Shown here: positions 1-10,906 of the stretch, piece after piece
Position numbering within the stretch: the first letter of the stretch is position 1
How the letters are laid out: each line of letters opens with the position of its first letter
Source: Lachnospiraceae bacterium
GTDB lineage: Bacteria; Bacillota_A; Clostridia; Lachnospirales; Lachnospiraceae
Assembly (NCBI GenBank): GCA_017430765.1
Contig: JAFRMI010000056.1
Span: 1-10,906 of the forward strand
DNA length: 10,906 nt
Direction of reading: 5' to 3'
Translations under genes and position numbers: made by a program
Notes under the pieces: model-generated
Seen by the model: the letters and a program-made list of their open reading frames with translations, nothing else
What the model was told of the DNA's origin: nothing
The model's database searches: none

Positions 1-100
1 GAATGGGCAAAGCCGCACAAAGTCCGACTGCACGCTCTTCAAGAATAAGGGACGGGGAGCTGAAGTTCGCTTGCAGACGTTATTCCGGGAGTAAAAGGAT
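1..100. other. Unassigned upstream segment
   Basis: No recognisable gene. On the + strand one frame closes at TAA 46-48, a second runs open from the window edge to TAA 92-94, and a third (with an ATG at 3) runs to TGA 102-104, overlapping the ATPase start as ATGA. None of the three translations resembles the hydrophobic end of a FecCD-type permease, which is the usual neighbour of this kind of ATPase. It could be the tail of an unknown gene, intergenic DNA or foreign sequence at an assembly edge. I see no cobalamin-riboswitch consensus in it. Confidence 0.4.
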
Positions 101-874
101 ATGAGGGATTCATGCATGGGCGGAGATGTGATCTTACAGACGAAATCTCTCGACGTCGGTTATGACAGCAGGGCTGTTGTCAGCCACGTGGAACTGGAAC
201 TGCATGAGGGGGAGCTGATCACCCTGATCGGGCCGAACGGTACCGGAAAATCCACGATTCTGAAAACACTCTCCGGACAGATCCCGCCGGTCAGAGGAGG
301 GGTGTATCTGTATGGAAAGGATATTCGTACGCTCCCTGAGAAAGAGATCTCCCGCAAAATGTCCCTGCTGATGACGGAGCGGGTGGATCCGGAACTGATG
401 ACCTGCGGCGACGTGGTGAGCATCGGGCGCTACCCGTATACGGGGATCATGGGAAGGCTGTCCGATCATGACCGGGAAGTGATTGATGAGGCGATGGCGA
501 TGGCAAATGTGACGGAGCTGAAGGACCGCTTCTTCACCCAGATCAGTGACGGACAGAAACAGCGGGTTCTGCTGGCGCGCGCTATCTGCCAGGAGCCGCG
601 AATCCTGATTATGGATGAGCCGACCAGCTTTCTGGACATCCGCCATAAGCTGGAACTCCTGCAGATTTTGATGAAACTGGTGAAAGAAGAGAGTGTGGCG
701 GCGGTCGTGTCTCTCCATGAGATTGAGCTGGCCCACAAAGTGGCCGATACGGTTATCTGCATCAAGGACGGCGAAGCGGAGCGGGGAAGCACTCCGGAGG
801 AAGTATTTGAAGGAGAGAACATCTGCCGGCTGTTTGATATTTCAAAGGATCAGTATGAATGGCTGTACGGATGA
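101..874 (+). CDS. ABC transporter ATP-binding protein, FecE/BtuD type (cobalamin/siderophore importer)
   Basis: A 257-residue cytoplasmic ATPase that would drive uptake of a corrinoid or ferric chelate through a FecCD/BtuC-like permease. Visible motifs are Walker A GPNGTGKST (44-52), the signature ISDGQKQR (148-155, in place of LSGGQ), Walker B ILIMDEP (168-174) and the H-loop SLHE with His206. The segment before GRYPYTG (110-115) reads LLMTER where many homologs read LLPQ, so the usual Q-loop glutamine is Thr92. Length is normal for the family. The start at 101 has GGAG at 88-91 with good spacing; ATG 116 is an in-frame alternative that would remove five residues. It lies 13 nt before cobT, so co-transcription is likely and a cobalamin-related substrate is the best inference. 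Substrate identity cannot be read from an ATPase alone, and the partner permease and binding protein are outside the window. Confidence 0.9.
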   Translation: MRDSCMGGDVILQTKSLDVGYDSRAVVSHVELELHEGELITLIGPNGTGKSTILKTLSGQIPPVRGGVYLYGKDIRTLPEKEISRKMSLLMTERVDPELMTCGDVVSIGRYPYTGIMGRLSDHDREVIDEAMAMANVTELKDRFFTQISDGQKQRVLLARAICQEPRILIMDEPTSFLDIRHKLELLQILMKLVKEESVAAVVSLHEIELAHKVADTVICIKDGEAERGSTPEEVFEGENICRLFDISKDQYEWLYG

Positions 875-887
875 TTCGGGAGGAAGG

Positions 888-1958
888 ATGAGAGAACTGT
901 CGGAAGAAATCCGGACAATAAAGATTCCGGACCGCGCTGCCCGTGCTGCGTGCAGGGCACACTGGAACCGGATCGGGAAACCTCTGTACGGCCTTGGCCA
1001 TCTCGAGGAATATCTGGTGCAGATCGCGGGAATCCAGCGGACAGAGCACGTGGATATCCGCAAAAAAGCGCTTGTGGTCTTCTGCGCGGATAATGGAGTG
1101 GTCGAAGAAGGGGTCAGCCAGACCGGTCAGGAGGTCACCGCTGTCGTGGCGGAGAACATCGCCTGCGGGCGATCCTGCTCGGCGATCATGTGCAGAAGAG
1201 CGGGCGTAGATATCTTCCCGGTGGATGTCGGGATCGCCGTGGACACGCCGCATGTGGAGAAAAGAAAGTGCATATACGGAACGGCCAATATGGCAAATGG
1301 GCCGGCCATGTCCCGTAAAGAGGTTCTGTATACAATCGGGGCCGGGATTGATAAAGCCAGGGACCTGGCGGCGGCGGGGTATCGGATTCTGGCTTCCGGT
1401 GAGATGGGAATCGGAAATACAACCACGAGCGCTGCGGCCGCCTCCGTTCTTCTCCGTCAGGATCCGGCGAAGATGGCCGGACGGGGAGCGGGGCTTTCGG
1501 ATGAGGGCCTCCAAAGAAAGATTGACGTGATACGCCGCGCGATTGCGGTCAATGCGCCGGATCCGGAGGATCCCGCAGATGTCCTCGCGAAGGTGGGAGG
1601 TGCGGATATCGCCGCACTGGCCGGGCTGTTTATCGGCGGCGCATCTGCCGGAGTGCCGGTTGTGATCGATGGCTTTATTTCGGCCGTGGGAGCCCTTCTG
1701 GCAGCCCGGCTGGCACCCCTTAGCAGGGAGTATATGATTCCGTCTCATGTATCGGAGGAGCCGGGGGTGAGAGTTGTGATGCAGGCGCTTGAATTGGAAC
1801 CGGTGATTCATGCGGGAATGCATCTGGGGGAGGGAACAGGCGCCGCTGCGCTTTTCCCGCTTCTCGATCTGGCCTGTGATGTCTATGACGGGATGGGTAC
1901 ATTTGAGGAAATCAACGTGGATGCATATGAAGATTATACCGGAAATCAATCCTTCTGA
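888..1958 (+). CDS. cobT: Nicotinate-nucleotide--dimethylbenzimidazole phosphoribosyltransferase CobT
   Basis: Transfers phosphoribose from nicotinate mononucleotide to the lower-ligand base (classically 5,6-dimethylbenzimidazole), giving alpha-ribazole phosphate for nucleotide-loop assembly. The 356-residue product has the usual CobT length. Motifs seen: KPLYGLGHLE (31-40), CADNGVVEEGVSQ (66-78), GEMGIGNTTTSAA (171-183), GGADIAALAGLFIGGAS (237-253), VPVVIDGFI (256-264) and HLGEGTGAA (312-320). Glu315 in the last corresponds to the family's catalytic glutamate. The frame is open further upstream into the ATPase gene, but ATG 888 is chosen because GGGAGGAAGG directly precedes it and the CobT N-terminus starts there. 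The gene overlaps cobU by 38 nt, which suggests translational coupling. The actual base used by the organism cannot be judged from sequence; many anaerobes use bases other than dimethylbenzimidazole. Confidence 0.97.
   Translation: MRELSEEIRTIKIPDRAARAACRAHWNRIGKPLYGLGHLEEYLVQIAGIQRTEHVDIRKKALVVFCADNGVVEEGVSQTGQEVTAVVAENIACGRSCSAIMCRRAGVDIFPVDVGIAVDTPHVEKRKCIYGTANMANGPAMSRKEVLYTIGAGIDKARDLAAAGYRILASGEMGIGNTTTSAAAASVLLRQDPAKMAGRGAGLSDEGLQRKIDVIRRAIAVNAPDPEDPADVLAKVGGADIAALAGLFIGGASAGVPVVIDGFISAVGALLAARLAPLSREYMIPSHVSEEPGVRVVMQALELEPVIHAGMHLGEGTGAAALFPLLDLACDVYDGMGTFEEINVDAYEDYTGNQSF
1905..1910 (+). promoter_or_regulatory. Ribosome binding site of cobU inside cobT
   Basis: GAGGAA lies 10 nt before ATG 1921, inside the last codons of cobT. 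It favours ATG 1921 over the nearby in-frame ATG 1927 (16 nt away) and over the open frame reaching back to 1810. Confidence 0.6.
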
Positions 1959-2577
1959 ACTCTCAAAAAAAGGCCGTCTGCTTCTTGTGACCGGAGGAGC
2001 GGCGAGCGGAAAATCGGCTTTTGCGGAAGAACTGTCCCGCAGTATGCCAAGGGATGGAAAGCTCTTCTATGTGGCCACCATGTACTGGAACCGCACGGAT
2101 CCGGAGACGCAGGAGAGGGTCCTGAGACACCGGCGGCAGAGGTGCGGAAAAGGATTTGAGACGATTGAACGGGAGAGACGGATCGCAGGTCTTACGGACT
2201 GGCTGCGGCCGGGAGATGTGATGCTGCTTGAGGATCTGTCCAATTTGCTGGCCAATGAGATGTTTCCGTGGTGGGAGGAGTCCGAAGGAGAACCGGATCT
2301 GTTCGGGAAAAAAAGCCGTTTCAGAGAGGATGGAGGCGCTGCATTTTCACAGTTTATAGAAGAAAAGATTGTAAAGCCTGTCGTTGAGATGTACAGATCC
2401 GGGATCAGCGTTGTTGCGGTAGGCAGCAGTATCACGGAAGAGATTCCGCGGGAAATGGACTACTCAACAGCTCTCTATATAAAGGGATTGATGCAGATAC
2501 AAAGAGAGATCGGGCAGACTGCGGATCAGGTGTATGAGGTTGTCTGCGGCATACCTATGTCATGTAAAAGCGGTTGA
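1921..2577 (+). CDS. cobU: Adenosylcobinamide kinase / adenosylcobinamide-phosphate guanylyltransferase CobU (divergent)
   Basis: Phosphorylates adenosylcobinamide and then transfers GMP to form adenosylcobinamide-GDP, the substrate of CobS. The 218-residue product is longer than the classic protein of about 180. The P-loop VTGGAASGKS (23-32) is intact, followed by FAEEL. LFYVATMYWN (48-57) and RVLRHRRQR (67-75) match the family pattern, and His70 is the candidate GMP-carrying histidine. The usual DCLT/N motif reads LEDLSNLLANEMF (103-115). Extra length comes from a charged stretch at about 117-140 and an 18-residue N-terminal extension. The region equivalent to the canonical NEVGxGIVP reads GSSITEEIP (168-176), and the later NQ position reads MQIQ. 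The ending ADQVYEVVCGIPM is typical. These departures resemble a CobU subtype I associate with Lachnospiraceae. A second CobU-like module is fused to CobQ downstream, so the division of labour between them is an open question. Confidence 0.9.
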   Translation: MHMKIIPEINPSELSKKGRLLLVTGGAASGKSAFAEELSRSMPRDGKLFYVATMYWNRTDPETQERVLRHRRQRCGKGFETIERERRIAGLTDWLRPGDVMLLEDLSNLLANEMFPWWEESEGEPDLFGKKSRFREDGGAAFSQFIEEKIVKPVVEMYRSGISVVAVGSSITEEIPREMDYSTALYIKGLMQIQREIGQTADQVYEVVCGIPMSCKSG

Positions 2578-2625
2578 GGCATAACGCGGACAGAATATGC
2601 ATTGAAGAAAAGTTGCAGCGTTAGA

Positions 2626-2647
2626 GTGTCCGGGAAAGCCCGGACAT
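2626..2647 (+). promoter_or_regulatory. Hairpin in the cobU-cobS gap
   Basis: A perfect 8-bp GC-rich inverted repeat, TGTCCGGG (2627-2634) and CCCGGACA (2639-2646), with a four-base AAAG loop; a G-T pair could extend it by one. It sits in the 87-nt gap before cobS. No T-run follows, so it is not a standard terminator. It may stabilise or separate transcript segments, or be a weak pause signal; function is inferred only from structure. Confidence 0.5.
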
Positions 2648-2664
2648 ATCACAAAAAGAGAACC

Positions 2665-3561
2665 ATGAAGAAAAAATCGGGATGGATCAACTGCATATGG
2701 GCGGCATTTTCCACGTATTCCCGGATCCCTGTTCCGGCTGCTTCGTGGGAGGCGGAAAGTCTCCGCTGGCAGATCTGCTGCTTCCCCCTCGTCGGGCTCG
2801 CGATCGGACTCATCTGGTGCATGGCAGGAATTATACTTACGCTGGCAGGGCTTTATCCGTTTCTAACAGGCATATTGCTCTGCGCGCTTCCGGTGATTCT
2901 GACAGGCGGGATTCATATGGACGGCTTCCTTGATACCACAGACGCGGTTCACTCATGGAAATCTCAGGAGGAGAGACAGGAGATTCTCAAAGATCCCCAT
3001 ATCGGTGCATTTGCGATGATTTACGGTGCTTTGTATCTGCTGACCGCATCCGGTATATGCGCACAAATTGCGGCAAATGTACAGGCGGCTGCCAATGTGC
3101 AGGCGGGAAGTATACAGCAGCTGACCTTGACAGCGCAGATGGGAACCACAGTGCAGTCTGTGATCGGACGCCTGCCGTCATCATTGCGGCAGCCCACATA
3201 TGTATCTTTTTTTATGATGATTCCCTGCTTTATTCTGTCCCGGATACTCAGTGCCCTTTCGGTTGTGTTTTTTCCGAAGGCGAGAAAAGAAGGAATGCTC
3301 CGCAGTACGGCAGACGCCTCGGATAAAAGAGCCGGAAAGGTTCTGTTTGCCGAACTGATCGTTGTGCTTTTTATCTTTGTGATTGAAGCATGGGCGTTCA
3401 GAAAACCGGCGATCCTGCTGCTCCCTCTGCTTTCCGGCCTGGTTTTTGCGTATTACTATCGTATGGTGATGCGTCAGTTTGGGGGAATCAGCGGAGATCT
3501 GGCGGGATGGTTCCTGCAGGTGACGGAACTGGCTTGCCTGGCTTTGATTGTTTTACTGTGA
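2665..3561 (+). CDS. cobS: Adenosylcobinamide-GDP ribazoletransferase (cobalamin synthase) CobS
   Basis: An integral membrane enzyme that joins adenosylcobinamide-GDP with alpha-ribazole (phosphate), the last assembly step of cobalamin. Family marks: FSTYSRIPVP (15-24), the metal-binding stretch LTGGIHMDGFLDTTDA (79-94), ILKDPHIGAFA (107-117) and FGGISGDLAGWFLQVTE (272-288). Hydrophobic segments lie near 36-60, 63-82, 117-135, 180-202, 228-245 and 248-264, and at the C-terminus. The product is 298 residues against a usual size near 250. The surplus is an inserted hydrophilic loop at about 132-178 containing a doubled AANVQA unit. The frame is open back to a TTG at 2602, but ATG 2665 is preferred: it starts right before the conserved N-terminal region and has a weak AAAGAGA upstream, while 2602 has no ribosome site. 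It follows cobU after a gap containing a hairpin. No cobC phosphatase gene follows it here. Confidence 0.95.
   Translation: MKKKSGWINCIWAAFSTYSRIPVPAASWEAESLRWQICCFPLVGLAIGLIWCMAGIILTLAGLYPFLTGILLCALPVILTGGIHMDGFLDTTDAVHSWKSQEERQEILKDPHIGAFAMIYGALYLLTASGICAQIAANVQAAANVQAGSIQQLTLTAQMGTTVQSVIGRLPSSLRQPTYVSFFMMIPCFILSRILSALSVVFFPKARKEGMLRSTADASDKRAGKVLFAELIVVLFIFVIEAWAFRKPAILLLPLLSGLVFAYYYRMVMRQFGGISGDLAGWFLQVTELACLALIVLL
3070..3105 (+). repeat. Imperfect tandem repeat inside cobS
   Basis: Two adjacent 18-bp units (3070-3087 and 3088-3105) match at 15 of 18 positions and encode AANVQA twice. They lie in the extra loop of CobS, so a local duplication probably helped to enlarge that loop. Confidence 0.7.
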
Positions 3562-3590
3562 CCGGGTTTGATACCCGCCGGCAGCACTTA

Positions 3591-3600
3591 AGAGGAAAAG
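3591..3600 (+). promoter_or_regulatory. Ribosome binding site fixing the cobQ start
   Basis: AGAGGAAAAG, with GAGG 10 nt before ATG 3606. It supports ATG 3606 as the start of the fused CobU-like::CobQ protein. The open frame continues back to 3390 inside cobS, but that part encodes nothing recognisable. Confidence 0.6.
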
Positions 3601-3605
3601 AGCGT

Positions 3606-5675
3606 ATGATTTTTATCATCGGGGGAGATGGAAGCGGTCAGAGAGAGTATGCGGAACAGCATTTTCCGGATGCATCCATCATTGACGCCTGTCATATGCT
3701 TGTAAAAAGGCAGATGGAAGCGGGTGAGGATCCTTTAGAATTTGCGGAGAAACTGATCCGGGAAGAGAACAATTCTTCGACGCGGGGGTCTTCAGAACGC
3801 GTCATCTGGAGCTGTGAGATGGGATGCGGGCTTGTGCCGCTTACTGCGGAGGAAAGGGCGTGGAGAGAGGCGTCCGGGAGAGTTAACTGCCGTCTGGCTG
3901 AGGCGGCGGATACGGTGATCCGGACCGTGTGCGGGATTGGGACCGTCATCAAGGCTCCCGCGAAAGAGGTATCTGCGGACCGCAGACCGCTTATCCGAAG
4001 TGAAATTGTGCCGGATGCGTGCAATGAAGAGACGCGCGCAAAAACCATCATGGTCGTCGGCACCATGTCAAATGCAGGCAAGAGCCTTGTCGCGGCGGGG
4101 CTTTGCCGCATTTTCACGGAGGACGGGTATCGCGTCGCACCGTTCAAGGCGCAGAATATGGCGCTCAATTCCTTCATCACGAAGAGGGGGGAGGAGATGG
4201 GACGGTCCCAGGTTGTGCAGGCGGAGGCATGCTGCAGGGAGCCGGACGCGAGGATGAACCCGATCCTGCTGAAACCGACGACGGATAAAGGATCCCAGAT
4301 CATCGTCATGGGACACCCGGTCGCGGATATGGACGCGAAAGAATACTATCGGCACAAGAATGAATATCTCCCGTATGTGAAAGACGCTTTCGATTCCCTC
4401 GCCAAAACGAACGACATCATTGTTCTGGAGGGAGCGGGAAGTCCGGCTGAGATCAACCTGAAAGAGAATGATATTGTCAATATGCCTATGGCGGCCATGG
4501 CAGATGCGCCGGTGATTCTGGTCGGCAATATCGACCCGGGCGGCGTCTTCGCGCAGCTTTACGGTACGGTCAAACTGCTCACGGAGGAGGAGCAGGACCG
4601 GATCTGCGGCCTGATTATCAATAAGTTCAGGGGGGATCTCTCCATTCTGGAACCCGGGATTGCGATGCTCGAGGATCTTCTCGGGAAACCGGTACTCGGT
4701 GTTCTTCCCTATATGGATGTGCACCTTGAACCGGAGGACTCCCTCGCTTTGGAGGCGTTTGAGCGGGAGAAGAAGGCAGACGCGCCGGACTTCCGGGAAA
4801 AAACGGGAGAAAAGCTCGACATCGCCGTCATCCGGCTGCCGAAGATCTCAAACTTTACGGATTTTGAAGCGATTTCTCTTGAGAAGGATGTCACTTTGCG
4901 CTATGTCACAGACGCGCGGGCGCTCGGATCTCCTGATGCGATTCTTCTTCCCGGGACAAAAAGTACGATCCGGGATCTGATGTGGCTCCGGGAGAGCGGG
5001 CTTTATGCGGAGATCAAGAAGGCGCATGAGCGCGGGGCATTTCTCGTCGGTATCTGCGGCGGTTACCAGATGCTCGGAAAGCGGATCATGGACCCGGACG
5101 GCGCGGAGATGCAGGGAGAGATCAGCGGATTCGGGTATCTCGACATGGAAACCCTTTTCTCGCAGGAGAAGGTGATGCGGCAGACGGAGTCAGTGTCGCG
5201 GTTTGGCATTCCCGCTCTTGACGGATGGAAGATCACCGGATATGAAGTGCATATGGGTCGTGAGACCTCTAAAGAGGAGGAAAGCGGAGCAGACCGGCCG
5301 CTGTACGAAGACGCATCCTGTACCTGCAGCGTCGGGACCGCGGCAGGGGGAGGCAGCGCGGGCCAGTGCGGGAGCGATACGGCCGCAGAAAGGACGGCTG
5401 ACGAAAAGGAAGCCGCAGATTCCGGCATTATCGGAACTTACATTCACGGACTGTTCGATGAGGATGATTTCCGAGGGGCCTTCCTCGAATATCTTTATGA
5501 ACGAAGAGGCGGGAAGCGGTCCCTTCCGGATGCGGGAAGCAGAATATCCTATCAGGAGTTCCGGGAGAAGCAGCTCCGTGACCTGGCGGAAGTCATGCGG
5601 AAACATCTGGATCTGCCGGCGATCTATCGGATTATGGGACTTCCCGGAGAGCATCCGTCTAAGGAGAGGTCATAG
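3606..5675 (+). CDS. cobQ: Cobyric acid synthase CobQ/CbiP with N-terminal CobU-like domain
   Basis: The CobQ part amidates side chains b, d, e and g of adenosylcobyrinic acid a,c-diamide using glutamine and ATP. The product is 689 residues, against about 500 for ordinary CobQ. Residues 1-118 form a CobU-like module: IIGGDGSGQREYAE (4-17) aligns with the CobU P-loop but has Gln12 for the essential Lys, and VIWSCEMGCGLVP (66-78) plus WREASGRVNCRLAEAAD (86-102) match the CobU C-terminal half. The middle CobU motifs are absent. From about 145 the synthase begins with TIMVVGTMSNAGKS (147-160), then KAQNMALNS (181-189), LEGAGSPAEINL (274-285), GNIDPGGVFA (307-316) and NKFRGD (339-344). The glutaminase domain has GICGGYQMLG with nucleophile Cys484, YEVHMGR (546-552) and GTYIHGLFD with His614. 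A Ser/Gly/Cys-rich stretch (553-606) enlarges that domain. No convincing internal start precedes the synthase part, so the fusion looks real. It sits 3 nt before cbiB. Confidence 0.95.
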   Translation: MIFIIGGDGSGQREYAEQHFPDASIIDACHMLVKRQMEAGEDPLEFAEKLIREENNSSTRGSSERVIWSCEMGCGLVPLTAEERAWREASGRVNCRLAEAADTVIRTVCGIGTVIKAPAKEVSADRRPLIRSEIVPDACNEETRAKTIMVVGTMSNAGKSLVAAGLCRIFTEDGYRVAPFKAQNMALNSFITKRGEEMGRSQVVQAEACCREPDARMNPILLKPTTDKGSQIIVMGHPVADMDAKEYYRHKNEYLPYVKDAFDSLAKTNDIIVLEGAGSPAEINLKENDIVNMPMAAMADAPVILVGNIDPGGVFAQLYGTVKLLTEEEQDRICGLIINKFRGDLSILEPGIAMLEDLLGKPVLGVLPYMDVHLEPEDSLALEAFEREKKADAPDFREKTGEKLDIAVIRLPKISNFTDFEAISLEKDVTLRYVTDARALGSPDAILLPGTKSTIRDLMWLRESGLYAEIKKAHERGAFLVGICGGYQMLGKRIMDPDGAEMQGEISGFGYLDMETLFSQEKVMRQTESVSRFGIPALDGWKITGYEVHMGRETSKEEESGADRPLYEDASCTCSVGTAAGGGSAGQCGSDTAAERTADEKEAADSGIIGTYIHGLFDEDDFRGAFLEYLYERRGGKRSLPDAGSRISYQEFREKQLRDLAEVMRKHLDLPAIYRIMGLPGEHPSKERS

Positions 5676-5678
5676 GAT

Positions 5679-6677
5679 ATGAGAGAATTTCTGGCATGGC
5701 ATATGATCGCGCTGTTCTCCGGCTGTGCTTTGGACCTGCTGATCGGTGATCCACACGGGATACCGCATCCGGTCGCAGCGATCGGAAAGCTCATCTATGC
5801 TCTCGAGCGGCGTCTTTTTCCAAAAGAAGGAAGACGGGATCCGAAGAGAGAGTATCACCGGGGCATAGTGCTCAGCCTGGCAGTCGTGTCCTCCGCGGCA
5901 CTTGTCACGGCAGCTGTCATGTATTTGGCGTATCGGATCCATCCTTATGCGGGTATCGCTGCGGAAGCCGTACTGACCTGCTATATATTGGCAGCAAAAA
6001 GCCTGTATAAGGAGAGTATGAAGGTATATGCGGATCTCCGCGCACATGATCTTGAAAAAGCCCGCAGGGATCTTTCTATGATCGTCGGGCGGGATACGGA
6101 TTCCCTTGACAGTGACGCCGTCACGAGAGCCGCCGTAGAGACGGTCGCGGAAAATACATCCGACGGTGTTCTCGCCCCGCTTATCTATACGGCGCTCGGC
6201 GGTCCTGTCCTGGGTATGATCTATAAATCTGTCAACACAATGGATTCCATGGTCGGATACCGGAACGACCGGTACGAGTTTTTCGGGAAAGCAGCGGCAA
6301 AGCTGGATGATGCGGTGAATTACCTGCCTTCCAGAATGAGTGCCCTCCTGATCATAGGAGGGACGGCGCTAGTGGGTGCATGTTCCGGAACATGCAGCCC
6401 TTCCCGTGCCTTCCGAATCTGGCGGAGGGACAGAAGAAACCACAAAAGCCCGAATTCCGCGCAGACGGAGAGCGCCTGTGCCGGAGCCCTCGGCCTTAAG
6501 CTTGGTGGGAACTCTGTGTATCAGGGAATCCTTGTGGAAAAACCGACCATCGGAGATGCGGTGCGGGAGATCGAACCGGAGGATATCCGGAGGGCGAACC
6601 ATCTGATGTTCGCGGCAGAAGCGATTCTTCTGGCGCTTATTATGGCCGGTTTCAGCCTGCTCTATGTGATGCGGTAA
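5679..6677 (+). CDS. cbiB: Adenosylcobinamide-phosphate synthase CbiB
   Basis: A membrane enzyme (called CobD in aerobic nomenclature) that attaches aminopropanol or its phosphate to adenosylcobyric acid, giving adenosylcobinamide (phosphate). Its 332 residues fit the family. Conserved stretches: ALDLLIGDPHGIPHPVAAIG (17-36), VGRDTDSLD (136-144), TRAAVETVAENTSDGVLAPL (149-168), GGPVLGMIYKSVNTMDSMVG (174-193), RYEFFGKAAAKLDDAVNYLP (198-217) and the ending region AGALGLKLGG (268-277). Hydrophobic segments lie near 5-22, 62-84, 89-107, 218-236 and 311-330. ATG 5679 is preceded by AAGGAGAGG (5661-5669), an excellent ribosome site inside the end of cobQ. The next gene, a CobD-type decarboxylase, would make the aminopropanol phosphate this enzyme uses. 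A perfect 20-bp palindrome falls in the codons for 233-239, a part that is variable in the family. Confidence 0.96.
   Translation: MREFLAWHMIALFSGCALDLLIGDPHGIPHPVAAIGKLIYALERRLFPKEGRRDPKREYHRGIVLSLAVVSSAALVTAAVMYLAYRIHPYAGIAAEAVLTCYILAAKSLYKESMKVYADLRAHDLEKARRDLSMIVGRDTDSLDSDAVTRAAVETVAENTSDGVLAPLIYTALGGPVLGMIYKSVNTMDSMVGYRNDRYEFFGKAAAKLDDAVNYLPSRMSALLIIGGTALVGACSGTCSPSRAFRIWRRDRRNHKSPNSAQTESACAGALGLKLGGNSVYQGILVEKPTIGDAVREIEPEDIRRANHLMFAAEAILLALIMAGFSLLYVMR
6377..6396. repeat. Perfect 20-bp palindrome inside cbiB
   Basis: TGCATGTTCCGGAACATGCA reads the same on both strands with no mismatch or spacer. It lies in frame in cbiB and encodes ACSGTC, just before the conserved soluble loop. It might be a binding site, a cruciform or hairpin in mRNA, or chance; no known box is matched, as the Firmicute SOS box has the opposite arm order. 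Confidence 0.85.
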
Positions 6678-6719
6678 CCGTTTGCTGCCAGCTTCTATGA
6701 TAACGGGAGGACAGTATGT

Positions 6720-7775
6720 ATGGGCCACGGAGGTGATATATACAGAAACCGGGTGGATCTTGACTTTTCGGTCAATTTAAATCCCGCTCCGGTACCGGAG
6801 GCAGTTCGGCAGGCGATCCGGGCAGGAATCCGGGACGCCTGCGCATATCCGGATCCGGAGCAGGAGAAGGTGCGCACGGCCATTGCGAAGGCGGACGGCG
6901 TGAAAGCGGAGAATGTGTTTGCGGGAAACGGCGCTTCGGAGCTGATTTTAGCGGCGGTGCGGGCGGTGTCCCCCAAAAAGGCCGTGCTTATGGAACCCTG
7001 CTATCTTGGGTACAGCTATGCGCTCCAAAGTCTCTCTGACTGTGAGATCATAAGAGTACAGCTCGACCGAAAGAACGGGTTTTCGCTGACCGGGAAAGAA
7101 TGTGAGGACATGGACCTGGGGACTGGGATGCTCTTCCTAACGGATCCATGGAATCCATCGGGCGGGAATATACCGGATACTGTTCTTTTGTCCGTTCTTG
7201 AGAGGGCAGAAGAGAGAGGGAACGCGGTCCTTCTCGACCAGAGCTTTCTGTTTCTATCGGATAAAGGGGCCGCTTATCAAAACCCGGGAGCGGCAGGGGC
7301 AGCGGATCTGATCCGGCGCTTCGAAAACCTGATGATCTTACGCTCCTATACGAAACTATTCTCCCTGCCGGGCATCCGGATGGGCTATATACTTGCGCGG
7401 GAGGATATGATCGGGCGGATCCGGAGGCAGCTTCCCGAGTGGAACCTGTCGTCTCCGTCAGGCAGTGCCATGGAGGCGTGCGCCTCTCTTCTAAGTAATG
7501 GAGAGACAGTGTTTAACTGCCTGAAAAATGCGGAAGAGAGGGCTTACCTGTCCGATGCACTGAAGAAACTTGGCTGTGCGGTCTATCCGAGTGATACGAT
7601 CTATATTCTGTTCGAAGCGGATCCGGATCTCTATCATAAACTCCTGCAAAGAGGAATCCTGATCCGTGACTGCAGCGATTATAACGGACTTGGCCGGGGA
7701 TATTTCCGGGTTGCCGTTAAGGATCACGCATCCAACAGCACGTTAATCCGGACGATGGAACAGATCCTTTCATAA
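6720..7775 (+). CDS. cobD: Threonine-phosphate decarboxylase CobD-type PLP enzyme
   Basis: Probably decarboxylates L-threonine O-3-phosphate to (R)-1-amino-2-propanol phosphate, the linker joined by CbiB. It belongs to the fold-type I aminotransferase superfamily, near histidinol-phosphate aminotransferase. The MGHGGDIY start is a hallmark of CobD proteins in B12 operons. Other marks: LDFSVNLNP (14-22), AYPDPE (42-47), FAGNGASELI (67-76), FLTDPWNPSGG (139-149), LLDQSF (171-176, where Asp173 should contact the PLP nitrogen), RSYTKLFSLPGIRMGY (208-223) with Lys212 as the PLP lysine, and YFRVAVK with Arg330 for the substrate carboxylate. Its 351 residues are normal. ATG 6720 has GGGAGG at 6705-6710; the ATG at 6716 is out of frame and stops at once. 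The decarboxylase rather than aminotransferase call rests on the HGGD start and the operon. Confidence 0.9.
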   Translation: MGHGGDIYRNRVDLDFSVNLNPAPVPEAVRQAIRAGIRDACAYPDPEQEKVRTAIAKADGVKAENVFAGNGASELILAAVRAVSPKKAVLMEPCYLGYSYALQSLSDCEIIRVQLDRKNGFSLTGKECEDMDLGTGMLFLTDPWNPSGGNIPDTVLLSVLERAEERGNAVLLDQSFLFLSDKGAAYQNPGAAGAADLIRRFENLMILRSYTKLFSLPGIRMGYILAREDMIGRIRRQLPEWNLSSPSGSAMEACASLLSNGETVFNCLKNAEERAYLSDALKKLGCAVYPSDTIYILFEADPDLYHKLLQRGILIRDCSDYNGLGRGYFRVAVKDHASNSTLIRTMEQILS

Positions 7776-7793
7776 GTGAGAAAAGGCAATTAT

Positions 7794-8444
7794 ATGGATA
7801 TTGAATATGTGAAACCGGCAGAGATTGAAGCGAGGAGCTTCTCCATCCTGACCGCGGAGCTCGCGGAGAAGGGAGTCGTGCTGACCGGCGATACAGCGCC
7901 TGTGATCAAGCGCTGTATCCATACGACGGCAGATTTTGACTATGCAAAAACGATGGTTTTCTCCGACGGTGCGGTTGCGAAACTGAAGGAACTGATCCGG
8001 AGCGGCGCTTCGATCGTGACGGATACCAACATGGCTCTTGCGGGGATCAGCCGCCGGGAATTTGGCCGGTATGGGGGCGGACTGCATTGCTTCATGGCGG
8101 ATCCCGAAGTCGCGGAGGAAGCCTCAATGCGGGGAGCCACCCGGGCGTCGGTCAGCATGGAGAAGGCGGCAGCACTGCCGGGCCCCGTCATTTTTGCGGT
8201 GGGAAATGCACCCACGGCACTTCTGACTCTGTGGGAACAATACCGGGCGGGAATCTACAAGCCGGCGTTCATCATCGGGGTGCCGGTCGGATTTGTGAAT
8301 GTGGAGGCAGCGAAAGAGAGAATTATGGAAAGCCCGATCCCCCATATCGTGAACGCGGGCAGGAAGGGCGGAAGCAATGTGGCGGCCGCGATCTGCAATG
8401 CCGTGCTGTATGAGATGCGCAGGGAAGAGGGCCGTTTTGTATGA
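7794..8444 (+). CDS. cbiC: Cobalt-precorrin-8 methylmutase CbiC
   Basis: Moves the methyl group from C-11 to C-12 of cobalt-precorrin-8, producing cobyrinic acid. The 216-residue product is the family's usual size. The start MDIEYVKPAEIEARSF is typical. VIKRCIHTTADFDY (37-50) holds His43, the catalytic histidine of the family, followed by a FSDGAV/TDTNMALAGI stretch. GNAPTAL and VNAGRKGGSNVAAAICNA occur in the C-terminal half as expected. ATG 7794 is preferred, with AAAAGG at 7781-7786; a GTG at 7776, directly after the cobD stop, would add six residues with no better support. The gene starts 18 nt after cobD and its last codons overlap cbiD by 4 nt (ATGA), so it begins the tightly coupled cbiC-cbiD-cbiF set. 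Confidence 0.97.
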   Translation: MDIEYVKPAEIEARSFSILTAELAEKGVVLTGDTAPVIKRCIHTTADFDYAKTMVFSDGAVAKLKELIRSGASIVTDTNMALAGISRREFGRYGGGLHCFMADPEVAEEASMRGATRASVSMEKAAALPGPVIFAVGNAPTALLTLWEQYRAGIYKPAFIIGVPVGFVNVEAAKERIMESPIPHIVNAGRKGGSNVAAAICNAVLYEMRREEGRFV

Positions 8445-9553
8445 AAACCGGGTTTACTACGGGAAGCTGCAGTGCCGCCGCGGCCAAAGCTGCCGCTTAT
8501 ATGCTGCTCGGCGGAAACAGAATCAGGAAGATCAGGATTGAAACGCCCGCGGGCATCCCCTGTGAGATGGAGATCCGGGACGTTCAAGTCCGCGAGGAGG
8601 AAGTCTCCTGCGCCGTCCGCAAGTATGCCGGCGATGATCCTGACGTCACAGACGGCGCCCTGATCGCAGCATCGGTTTCCGTTGTCGGGGACGGGAAGGG
8701 CGAAGTATTCATCGAAGGGGGTGAGGGCGTCGGCACCGTGACGAGGCCGGGCCTCGACCAGCCGGTCGGAAATGCGGCCATCAATTCCGTCCCCAGGAGC
8801 ATGATCAAAAAAGAAGTGAAAGAGGTCATGCATCTGATGGGATTTACAGATTCCCTGCGGGCGGTCATCTCTGTCCCGGAAGGCCGGAAGCTTGCGGAGC
8901 AGACCTTCAATCCGCGGCTCGGGATTGTGGGAGGGATTTCCATCATCGGAACGAAGGGGATTGTGGAGCCCATGAGTAAGACGGCCCTCCTGGAAACCAT
9001 ACGGGTGGAACTCAGGCAGCGTCGGGCGGAAGGGGCGGAGATCGCCGTCGTATCTCCCGGTAATTACGGTCTGGAATTCATGAAGCGGCAGTACGATTAT
9101 GACCTTGATCTGGCGGTCAAGTGCTCAAACTTCATCGGCGATACGATCGATATGGCCGGAGAGCTCGGCTTTAAGCGGATGCTGCTCGTCGGGCATATCG
9201 GAAAACTCGTCAAGGTGTCAGGCGGGATCATGAATACACATTCCAGGGAAGCGGATTCCCGGATGGAACTTCTGGCTGCCGCAGCGGTCCGCGCCCACGC
9301 GCCGGAGGAAACCGTTCTGGCCGTTCTTGATGCACTGACGACTGAGGAGGCGTACCGGCACCTGGCGGATGCGGGAATTGAGAAGAAGTGTTCGGCTTAT
9401 CTTATGGAACGGATTGCATATTATTTAAACAGGAGAGCCTGCCCGGAACTTGAAGTGCAGTGCATGGTCTATTCGAACGAGCGGGGACTCCTCGGTAAAA
9501 CAGAACTTGCGGAACAGTGGCTTGCGGAAACGAAAGCAGGGAGAGCGCCATGA
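8441..9553 (+). CDS. cbiD: Cobalt-precorrin-5B C1-methyltransferase CbiD
   Basis: SAM-dependent methylation at C-1 after ring contraction in the anaerobic route; CbiD has no relative in the aerobic pathway, so it fixes the pathway type. The 370-residue protein begins MKTGFTTGSCSAAAAKAAA, the diagnostic N-terminus. Further family stretches: KYAGDDPDVTDGA (61-73), GGEGVGTVTRPGL (93-105), NPRLGIVGGISIIGTKGIVE (157-176) and GHIGKLVKVSGGIMNTHSR (251-269). ATG 8441 overlaps the cbiC stop as ATGA, with GAGG at 8427-8430. The C-terminus overlaps cbiF in the same way. No truncation or frameshift is seen. Confidence 0.97.
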   Translation: MKTGFTTGSCSAAAAKAAAYMLLGGNRIRKIRIETPAGIPCEMEIRDVQVREEEVSCAVRKYAGDDPDVTDGALIAASVSVVGDGKGEVFIEGGEGVGTVTRPGLDQPVGNAAINSVPRSMIKKEVKEVMHLMGFTDSLRAVISVPEGRKLAEQTFNPRLGIVGGISIIGTKGIVEPMSKTALLETIRVELRQRRAEGAEIAVVSPGNYGLEFMKRQYDYDLDLAVKCSNFIGDTIDMAGELGFKRMLLVGHIGKLVKVSGGIMNTHSREADSRMELLAAAAVRAHAPEETVLAVLDALTTEEAYRHLADAGIEKKCSAYLMERIAYYLNRRACPELEVQCMVYSNERGLLGKTELAEQWLAETKAGRAP

Positions 9554-10314
9554 TTGATTTTGTCGGTGCCGGCCCCGGGGCGGCGGATCTGATTACAGTA
9601 AGAGGCATGCAGTTAATTGAGCGGGCGGATGTTGTCATCTATGCCGGAAGTCTGGTGAATCCCGAACTTCTCCGGTATGCGCGGAAAGATGCGGAATTAT
9701 ATAACAGCGCGAAGATGACGCTGGAACAGGTGACGGCGGTTATGCTCGCGGCGGAAGAAGAGGGAAAACGGGTCGTGCGCCTCCACACCGGTGAGCCAAG
9801 CATCTACGGCGCGGTCCGGGAGCAGATGCGCATTCTCGATGAAAGAGGCGTCCCTTACGCATCCTGCCCCGGCGTCAGTGCGTGTTTCGGCGCCGCCGCT
9901 TCTTTGAATCTGGAGTATACGCTTCCCGGAGTATCCCAGACGCTGATCATAACGCGGATGGAAGGACGGACGGCGGTTCCGGAGAGGGAAAGAATCGAAT
10001 CCCTTGCGGCGCACGGGGCCTCCATGGCGATCTATCTGAGCGCGGGTATGCTGGAGGAGCTGGCAGAGCGGCTGCAGGAGGGCGGATACGGTCCAAATAC
10101 GCCGGCAGCACTGGTCTACAAGGCCACATGGCCTGAGGAAAAACGTGTTCTGTGTACCGTCGGAACGCTCGGAGAAGCCGGAAGGGCGAACGGAATCAGC
10201 AATCTGGCTGTCGTACTCGTCGGAGAAGCTGTCAGACCTTCCTCTTACGAGCGGTCGAAACTCTATGATCCGGAGTTTACGACCGGGTTCCGCAAAGGAT
10301 CTGCAGCGCGCTGA
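9550..10314 (+). CDS. cbiF: Cobalt-precorrin-4 C11-methyltransferase CbiF (CobM)
   Basis: A SAM-dependent uroporphyrin-III-type methyltransferase adding the C-11 methyl to cobalt-precorrin-4. The product is 254 residues, normal for CbiF/CobM. Motifs: FVGAGPGAADLITVRG (4-19) at the start, VIYAGSLVNPELL (29-41), LHTGEPSIYGAVREQM (78-93), the SAM-site CPGVSACFGAAA (106-117) and ITRMEGRTAVP (134-144). The YAGSLVNPE and TGEPSIYGA pair separates CbiF from the related CbiL, CbiH and CbiE. ATG 9550 overlaps the cbiD stop as ATGA and has AGGGAG at 9538-9543; the frame is open 11 codons further upstream inside cbiD without support. It should act immediately before CbiG, whose gene follows after a structured gap. 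Confidence 0.96.
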   Translation: MIDFVGAGPGAADLITVRGMQLIERADVVIYAGSLVNPELLRYARKDAELYNSAKMTLEQVTAVMLAAEEEGKRVVRLHTGEPSIYGAVREQMRILDERGVPYASCPGVSACFGAAASLNLEYTLPGVSQTLIITRMEGRTAVPERERIESLAAHGASMAIYLSAGMLEELAERLQEGGYGPNTPAALVYKATWPEEKRVLCTVGTLGEAGRANGISNLAVVLVGEAVRPSSYERSKLYDPEFTTGFRKGSAAR

Positions 10315-10323
10315 CAATCTGAG

Positions 10324-10355
10324 CGGGCAGCCTGCTTCGTGCCGTCCGTTTTTTT
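10324..10355 (+). terminator. Possible intrinsic terminator after cbiF
   Basis: CGGGCAGC (10324-10331) can pair with GCCGTCCG (10341-10348), giving an 8-bp stem with one A-C mismatch and one G-T pair and a 9-nt loop. Seven T residues follow directly (10349-10355). The layout fits a moderate rho-independent terminator, which would reduce read-through into cbiG. Strength is uncertain because of the mismatch. Confidence 0.5.
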
Positions 10356-10370
10356 ATAAAATGCGGCACT

Positions 10371-10410
10371 TTGACCGGTATCAGACGGAATGCTCTGATC
10401 ATGACCGGTC
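10371..10410 (+). promoter_or_regulatory. Long inverted repeat with promoter-like hexamers before cbiG
   Basis: GACCGGT (10373-10379) pairs with ACCGGTC (10404-10410), and ATCAGA (10380-10385) pairs with TCTGAT (10394-10399). This gives 13 base pairs with a CATG bulge on the right arm and an 8-nt loop. The same stretch contains TTGACC (10371-10376) and, 17 nt later, TCTGAT (10394-10399), a weak -35/-10 pair. It may be an operator over a second promoter, or an mRNA leader hairpin ending just before the cbiG ribosome site AGGAG (10415-10419). The structure is directly visible; promoter activity is inferred. Confidence 0.4.
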
Positions 10411-10425
10411 TGTGAGGAGAAACGA

Positions 10426-10821
10426 ATGAAAAAAGCGGCGATCTGCTTTACAGAAAGCGGGAAAACGGTCATCGATAAGATCAACCGGGCCGCGGAGGCG
10501 GCCGGAGTCCGGAAAGCGGAGGCTTATATCGCGCGGCACGGCGGAGAGGTATATGAGGGCTTCACAGCCGTCACAGAGCCTCTTTCCGAATGGGCAAAGG
10601 AGCGGTTCCGCGAACACGCAGCCCTGCTGTTTGTGGGCGCGGCGGGGATTGCCGTCCGCGCAATTGCCGGTGCCGTGCGCGATAAGCTGGATGACAGCCC
10701 CGTCCTTGTGATCGACGATCTGGGGCAGTTCGTGATCCCGATTCTGTCCGGCCACGCAGGAGGGGCAAACCGGATCGCGGTTACGATAGCGGGCCTCATC
10801 GGTGCCGTTCCGGTGATCACG
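10426..10821 (+). CDS. cbiG: Cobalt-precorrin-5A hydrolase CbiG, N-terminal part (homology ends at 10821)
   Basis: CbiG opens the delta-lactone of cobalt-precorrin-5A and releases acetaldehyde. About 132 codons are recognisable: MKKAAICFTESG start, LLFVGAAGIAVRAIAG (67-82), SPVLVIDDLGQFVIPILSGH (91-110) and GGANRIAVTIAGLIGAVPVIT (112-132). ATG 10426 has AGGAG at 10415-10419. The family continues PVIT with a TATD-like segment, but here the frame reads PVITHIAAGQRVELC and stays unlike CbiG to the window end, although no stop codon intervenes up to 10906. No frameshift restores the family sequence. The gene is therefore either cut by an insertion or rearrangement near 10813-10821, or joined to unrelated DNA in assembly. 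Full-length CbiG is normally well over 300 residues. Confidence 0.85.
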
Positions 10822-10906
10822 CACATAGCTGCCGGCCAGCGCGTTGAGCTTTGTAAGGGTCGGCATGCCCTCAATCTGCAGGGCGTTGATCTCGTCGATC
10901 AGCTGC
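10822..10906 (-). other. Foreign-looking segment with a possible minus-strand partial reading frame
   Basis: Read on the minus strand from 10905 downwards, this stretch is open and gives a protein-like sequence starting QLIDEINALQIEGMP and continuing TLTKLNALAGSYVR up to the junction with cbiG. The helical, Leu-spaced pattern looks more like natural protein than the + strand continuation of CbiG. I do not recognise the family; a short phage or mobile-element protein is only a guess. The frame runs off the window at its 5' end, so the true start is unknown. Confidence 0.35.

Follow-up and report, generated by a model that had tools for sequence, protein, structure and literature searches.

The bifunctional adenosylcobinamide (AdoCbi) kinase/AdoCbi-phosphate guanylyltransferase, CobU, is a homotrimer in Salmonella, where the guanylylated histidine is His46, and in the pathway CbiB acts between CobQ and CobU. 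Proteins of the CobU/CobP family (Pfam PF02283; PDB IDs: 1CBU, 1C9K, 7TM8, 8YEP, 9VIO) are about 180 residues long. A search of the open-licence literature gave, among its top matches, no paper describing CobU as split or paired. A multienzyme complex of the late steps, made up of CbiB, CobU, CobT, CobC and CobS, has been proposed (PMC8092220), and such a complex would fit a CobU-like module that is occasionally joined to pathway enzymes.

Here we analyse a 10,906-nucleotide stretch of DNA from a Lachnospiraceae bacterium (the window), in which a CobU-like module of only about 118 residues is fused in frame to the N-terminus of cobyric acid synthase. We compare this module, which we term CobU2, with the P-loop CobU encoded upstream of it (CobU1), with its free-standing relatives and with natural fusions of the two.

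Results

A shortened CobU joined to CobQ

The reading frame of the fused protein, on the forward strand, is free of stops from 3390 to 5675. Its likely start is the ATG at 3606, with AGAGGA upstream; the same start residue is used in the database gene calls P0004–P0006, the methionine of the nearest relative found (L001) lies one residue earlier, and for the window itself the database has a gene call (P0003) that begins 33 codons further upstream. The protein opens with a short, catalytically incomplete CobU-like module, the CobU2 domain (3606–3962), continues through a linker (3963–4040) whose length varies across the fused relatives with the frame remaining open, and ends in CobQ (4041–5675), which has CbiA and GATase_3 domains in Pfam and matches NCBIfam NF001989 over residues 146–677 with 623.1 bits against a cut-off of 273. 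CobQ proteins with an N-terminal CobU2 were found in four protein clusters, one of them the window's own, as well as in L001, where CobU2, CobQ and CbiC share a single 841-residue frame (L001:7977–10499). Translation from the synthase domain only was considered, and the open frame together with the conservation of the domain in relatives argues against it. An assembly error was also rejected, since L001 and P0004–P0006 have the fusion too, with differing linker lengths.

A preliminary description of this DNA had aligned the N-terminal residues with CobU by eye, and profile searches bear this out: residues 22–113 match positions 75–166 of Pfam CobU, scoring 46.5 bits when residues 1–123 are searched alone and 39.9 bits within the whole protein, in both cases above the cut-off of 27. 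Additionally, residues 26–116 match NCBIfam PRK05800 (E = 3.4e-10), and the domain matches CobU chains in the PDB (E = 5.5e-8). Its predicted structure has the CobU fold, with a short strand at residues 24–26 that aligns with the Walker B strand. The score of the domain lies well below the NCBIfam equivalog cut-off for the full CobU enzyme (39.9 against 161 bits). The P-loop (3621–3644, residues 6–13) reads GGDGSGQR, as described earlier, with glutamine in place of lysine, and does not fit the Walker A pattern GxxxxGK[ST]; the VAT strand and the region of the guanylylated histidine are missing, the aligned stretch being absent altogether. The C-terminal CobU motif (E71.G73.G75LVP78...R84..R87...G91R..N...CGIGTVIK; 3816–3953, residues 71–116), which includes the previously noted GCGLVP and WREASGRVN, lies in invariant or near-invariant alignment columns, and the middle part of CobU is indeed lacking. 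The earlier view that the module is unlikely to be a working kinase agrees with its residues, which would argue against kinase or guanylyltransferase activity by itself. A sequencing error behind the lost lysine is unlikely and was rejected, as glutamine occupies that position in all five CobQ-fused copies seen (window, P0004–P0006 and L001).

The companion CobU1 and the cob operon

On the same strand upstream lie cobT (888–1958; Pfam DBI_PRT, 411.5 bits), cobU1 (1921–2577) and cobS (2665–3561; Pfam CobS, 155.8 bits, and gene order), giving the conserved order cobT-cobU1-cobS-cobU2, in which cobT comes first and cobS, as in most relatives, stands between the two cobU genes. CobU1 has the sequences GGAASGKS, YVAT and H70RRQR and lacks the GxGIVP / R..R motif; it scores 85.2 bits against Pfam and 73 bits against the NCBIfam model, for which the cut-off is 161. 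The start of cobU1 is putative and overlaps the end of cobT, and the protein carries an insert at about residues 117–140 (WWEESEGEPDLFGKKSRFREDGGA) that is longer than in the relatives compared. No Rfam family reached its gathering score in the window (1–10,906), and a cobalamin riboswitch was thus not found there.

Reciprocal loss of conserved residues

We compared 166 CobU1 and 162 CobU2 sequences, with some genomes counted twice, against 12 canonical CobUs (from E. coli, six genomes of a family sample and five of a phylum-wide sample, with two CobU2-like short proteins excluded). Of the 49 columns conserved in at least 10 of these 12, and taking kept to mean 70% or more, CobU1 alone keeps 20, CobU2 alone nine, both keep 11 and neither keeps nine; many of the 20 CobU1-only columns fall in the stretch missing altogether from CobU2. 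The motif GxG[LIV]VP occurs in 80 of 81 CobU2s and in none of 79 CobU1s, the window's included, while the histidine motif occurs in 74 of 79 CobU1s (one of the misses being a truncated sequence) and in none of 81 CobU2s.

In the numbering of the window, the CobU2-only residues are E71, G73, G75, V77, P78, R84, R87, L97 and I115. The window's CobU2 domain keeps all nine, and at the same columns its CobU1 has S170, T172, E174, R177, E178, A184, I187, I197 and C215, that is, none of eight, with the ninth, a leucine, replaced by isoleucine. The fused domain thus has the motif typical of the CobU2 group, ExGxGxVP...R..RE..GR without a His region, and its companion CobU1 lacks that same motif. A canonical relative (L127) passes the NCBIfam cut-off of 161 with 183.8 bits; it is reached neither by CobU1 (102 bits) and CobU2 (61 bits) of another locus (L007) nor by two fusions of the two (138–140 bits).

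Free-standing relatives and gene order

A contig scan of genomes yielded 98 confirmed loci with a relative, the best 80 of which were used; named hosts include Blautia, Merdimonas, Anaerobium, Velocimicrobium and Hespellia. A P-loop CobU is also present at 78 of the 80, the remaining two loci beginning just upstream of the relative, and the usual order across the 80 is again cobT-cobU1-cobS-cobU2. Short free-standing CobU-like proteins had been described as neighbours of cobQ in Lachnospiraceae; the proteins exist, and their usual place is after cobS rather than adjoining cobQ. Across 153 loci with separate genes, some of which share one genome, cobU1 and cobU2 always lie on the same strand. 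The start of cobU2 is 600–1300 bases past the end of cobU1 in 146 of them, a spacing that fits cobS, and in the others it follows cobU1 directly (four) or lies elsewhere (three). In each of 13 whole genomes searched, one match spans CobU in full length and another, close by in that region, spans its C-terminal half; one genome has a third match that, at 20 bits, is below the cut-off. Not counting the window's copy, the P-loop lysine is kept in 152 of 161 CobU2 relatives and the Ser/Thr after it in only 35; the P-loop is more eroded in the CobQ-fused clade.

Among named database entries, CobU2 proteins of about 126 residues (three of at least 120 listed) bear CobU-type enzyme names. The names given to CobU2 and to fusion entries are adenosylcobinamide kinase or 'bifunctional adenosylcobinamide kinase/adenosylcobinamide-phosphate guanylyltransferase', and CobU2 is without the catalytic residues.

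Distribution across genomes

In a sample of 250 genomes of one family, PF02283 is matched in 156, twice or more in 135 and once in 21. Reading 85 of the 135 revealed CobU1 together with CobU2 in 79 (74 as separate genes, five fused); in the other six, CobU2 was outside the fetched stretch or not resolved in it. Six of the 21 single-match genomes have a canonical-scoring CobU (173–190 bits, the best score in the family outside these six being 134 bits), and one (G184) has a CobU1-CobU2 fusion. When the six canonical genomes were searched for CobU2, only their own CobU was found, in one case accompanied by a further match of 18 bits within that ORF. In two of these six proteins (L126 and L130) the loop is degenerate and the second arginine is gone, with no CobU2 in the genome.

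In 14 of the 156 genomes a single low-scoring CobU stands without a clear CobU2, which there looks dispensable or replaceable. Searching these for CobU2 gave no match in 12, only the own CobU in one (G260) and a weak 26.6-bit match elsewhere in another (G215). Of the 14, we read all but G016, G170 and G173, and the eleven proteins are CobU1-type. On a tree that includes such lone CobU1s, they account for three changes inside the CobU1 clade, one of them forced by well-supported branches, which suggests later loss of CobU2 in these lineages; the window's CobU1 clusters with three of them (support 91/85). We considered CobY (TIGR00454) as a substitute for CobU2 in lone-CobU1 genomes and set it aside, there being no match above the cut-off in any of 23 genomes, including the 14, and weak matches below it in 22. 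Several of the CobU1-type proteins that have no clear CobU2 partner (L112–L122) have a C-terminus that is eroded further.

In the phylum-wide sample, 234 of 398 genomes match the CobU2 alignment. Among the matches listed, CobU2 is near full length in about 25 genomes, and the others mainly involve the C-terminal half within mostly longer ORFs, as a canonical CobU would. In the Akkermansia CobU (PDB ID: 9vio) the same two arginines are missing in the alignment, and the PDB entries name no partner protein.

Natural fusions

CobU1 and CobU2 are joined in a single chain six times in the fetched genomes, corresponding to five state changes on the tree, four of which are forced by well-supported branches. 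At least 120 such fusion proteins are listed, each with 99% or more coverage; 119 of the 120 listed have Walker A together with the GxGxVP and arginine motifs, and the remaining one shows no Walker A within the first 60 residues. The AF2 model of one natural fusion of 323 residues (pLDDT 90.7, pTM 0.86) suggests that the two halves have a defined placement. Besides these six, and leaving the window aside, CobU2 in the fetched loci is joined to a histidine phosphatase (two loci; L022:7986–8999 and L079:1824–2855), an aminotransferase-type protein (L098:2127–3539), a Met8-like NAD-binding protein (L165:5756–6808) and, in L001, CobQ plus CbiC. The preliminary description had taken fusion to CobQ as a sign of substrate passing along the late pathway. 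With CobQ as one of several partners of CobU2, and with the CbiB step in between, channelling specific to CobQ is not well supported.

A lone CobU1-type protein (L117:5977–6966) is itself fused to what reads as a Met8-like NAD-binding stretch. At four lone-CobU1 loci (L113, L114, L115 and L121), CobQ ORFs of 768–817 residues have an N-terminal extension that, by eye and by its likeness to 101–874 of the window, reads as an ABC-transporter ATPase; a CobU2 hidden in these long CobQs was looked for and not seen. CobQ thus seems to take different N-terminal partners by lineage.

Discussion

On balance we lean towards a two-subunit AdoCbi kinase/AdoCbi-phosphate guanylyltransferase, in which CobU2, a CobU copy that has been shortened and is non-catalytic, partners CobU1 (1921–2577) and completes its site in trans. 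The two proteins are homologous, have lost residues reciprocally and are encoded together, the catalytic middle is missing from one of them, and the halves have repeatedly been joined in one chain. CobU1 would supply the Walker A lysine and serine, the VAT strand and the guanylylated histidine, and CobU2 the C-terminal GxG(I/L)VP loop and the arginines R84 and R87 that CobU1 has lost. As the Salmonella enzyme is a homotrimer, the simplest arrangement would be a hetero-oligomer, with CobU2 occupying the place of the neighbouring subunit and completing the CobU1 site from there. We infer the formation of this complex, the sharing of its site and its stoichiometry, and the fusion to CobQ may be a mere tether; the proximity of the genes probably led to the joining of CobU2 and CobQ in the window's small clade. 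CobU2 had earlier been suggested as a regulatory partner of the true CobU. It probably is a partner of the window's CobU, but since that CobU1 is itself degenerate in the motif that CobU2 keeps, the pair looks like a two-part enzyme and not like an enzyme with its regulator. Extended to most CobU-bearing Lachnospiraceae-type bacteria, the proposal becomes more tentative, and we would put it at a little under an even chance: an obligate two-gene hetero-oligomer with one shared active site, whose halves have repeatedly been joined and whose CobU2 has been lost in some lineages.

The lone CobU1s (14 of 156 genomes, 11 of them read), the absence of the same arginines from the Akkermansia CobU and the degenerate loop in two canonical-scoring CobUs all indicate that what CobU2 contributes need not be strictly catalytic and may be structural or replaceable. 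CobU1 could then be competent alone, with CobU2 a structural or scaffold subunit that binds CobU1 and other late enzymes and contributes no active-site residues, as would also suit its joining to several different cob enzymes. We regard this as rather unlikely, though a serious contender: a scaffold has no need of a near-invariant canonical GxGIVP/R..R motif, and this is precisely the motif that CobU1 loses.

It is less plausible still that CobU2 works apart from CobU1, binding corrinoid or GTP, for example, to deliver or sense substrate, and forms no stable enzyme with it. The predicted CobU fold is kept, and the P-loop lysine is usual outside the window's clade, both of which would suit such a function; against it, the histidine and VAT strand are missing, the Ser/Thr after the lysine is kept in few relatives, and the repeated in-frame joining to CobU1 and the reciprocal residue loss point to joint action. 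Loss of the lysine in the CobQ-fused copies and the grouping of the window's CobU1 with lone CobU1s might even be taken to mean that the domain on CobQ is a decaying remnant with no present function. This we think very improbable, as the window retains every one of the nine CobU2-only residues and the frame has been maintained open in relatives that are 50–62% identical over the CobU2 domain.

If the two-part enzyme is real, a core B12 enzyme in a major gut group (Blautia and relatives) would consist of two reciprocally degenerate halves, and database labels that present either half as the complete bifunctional enzyme would mislead. Counts of cobU genes could likewise misjudge which organisms make cobamides, and introducing 'cobU' by itself into a new host could prove unsuccessful. 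Because CobU occurs in nature as a single canonical enzyme, as a split pair, as a joined pair and as CobU1 on its own, what its C-terminal loop and arginines do can be tested.

Compared with known systems, CobU2 differs from CobU/CobP in its length and in having neither the guanylylated histidine nor the VAT strand, and its P-loop lacks the lysine in the window's copy and usually the Ser/Thr in its relatives. The synthase is an ordinary CobQ/CbiP cobyric acid synthase over residues 146–677, and differs by the extra N-terminal CobU2 domain. The short CobU-like proteins that stand alone in Lachnospiraceae-type operons, usually after cobS, are similar in length and have the same motifs, whereas the window's copy is joined to CobQ and is without the P-loop lysine. 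In the natural CobU1-CobU2 fusions (genera read as Mediterraneibacter, Extibacter, Luxibacter and others) the C-terminal half is the same CobU2 module, joined there to CobU1 and in the window to CobQ.
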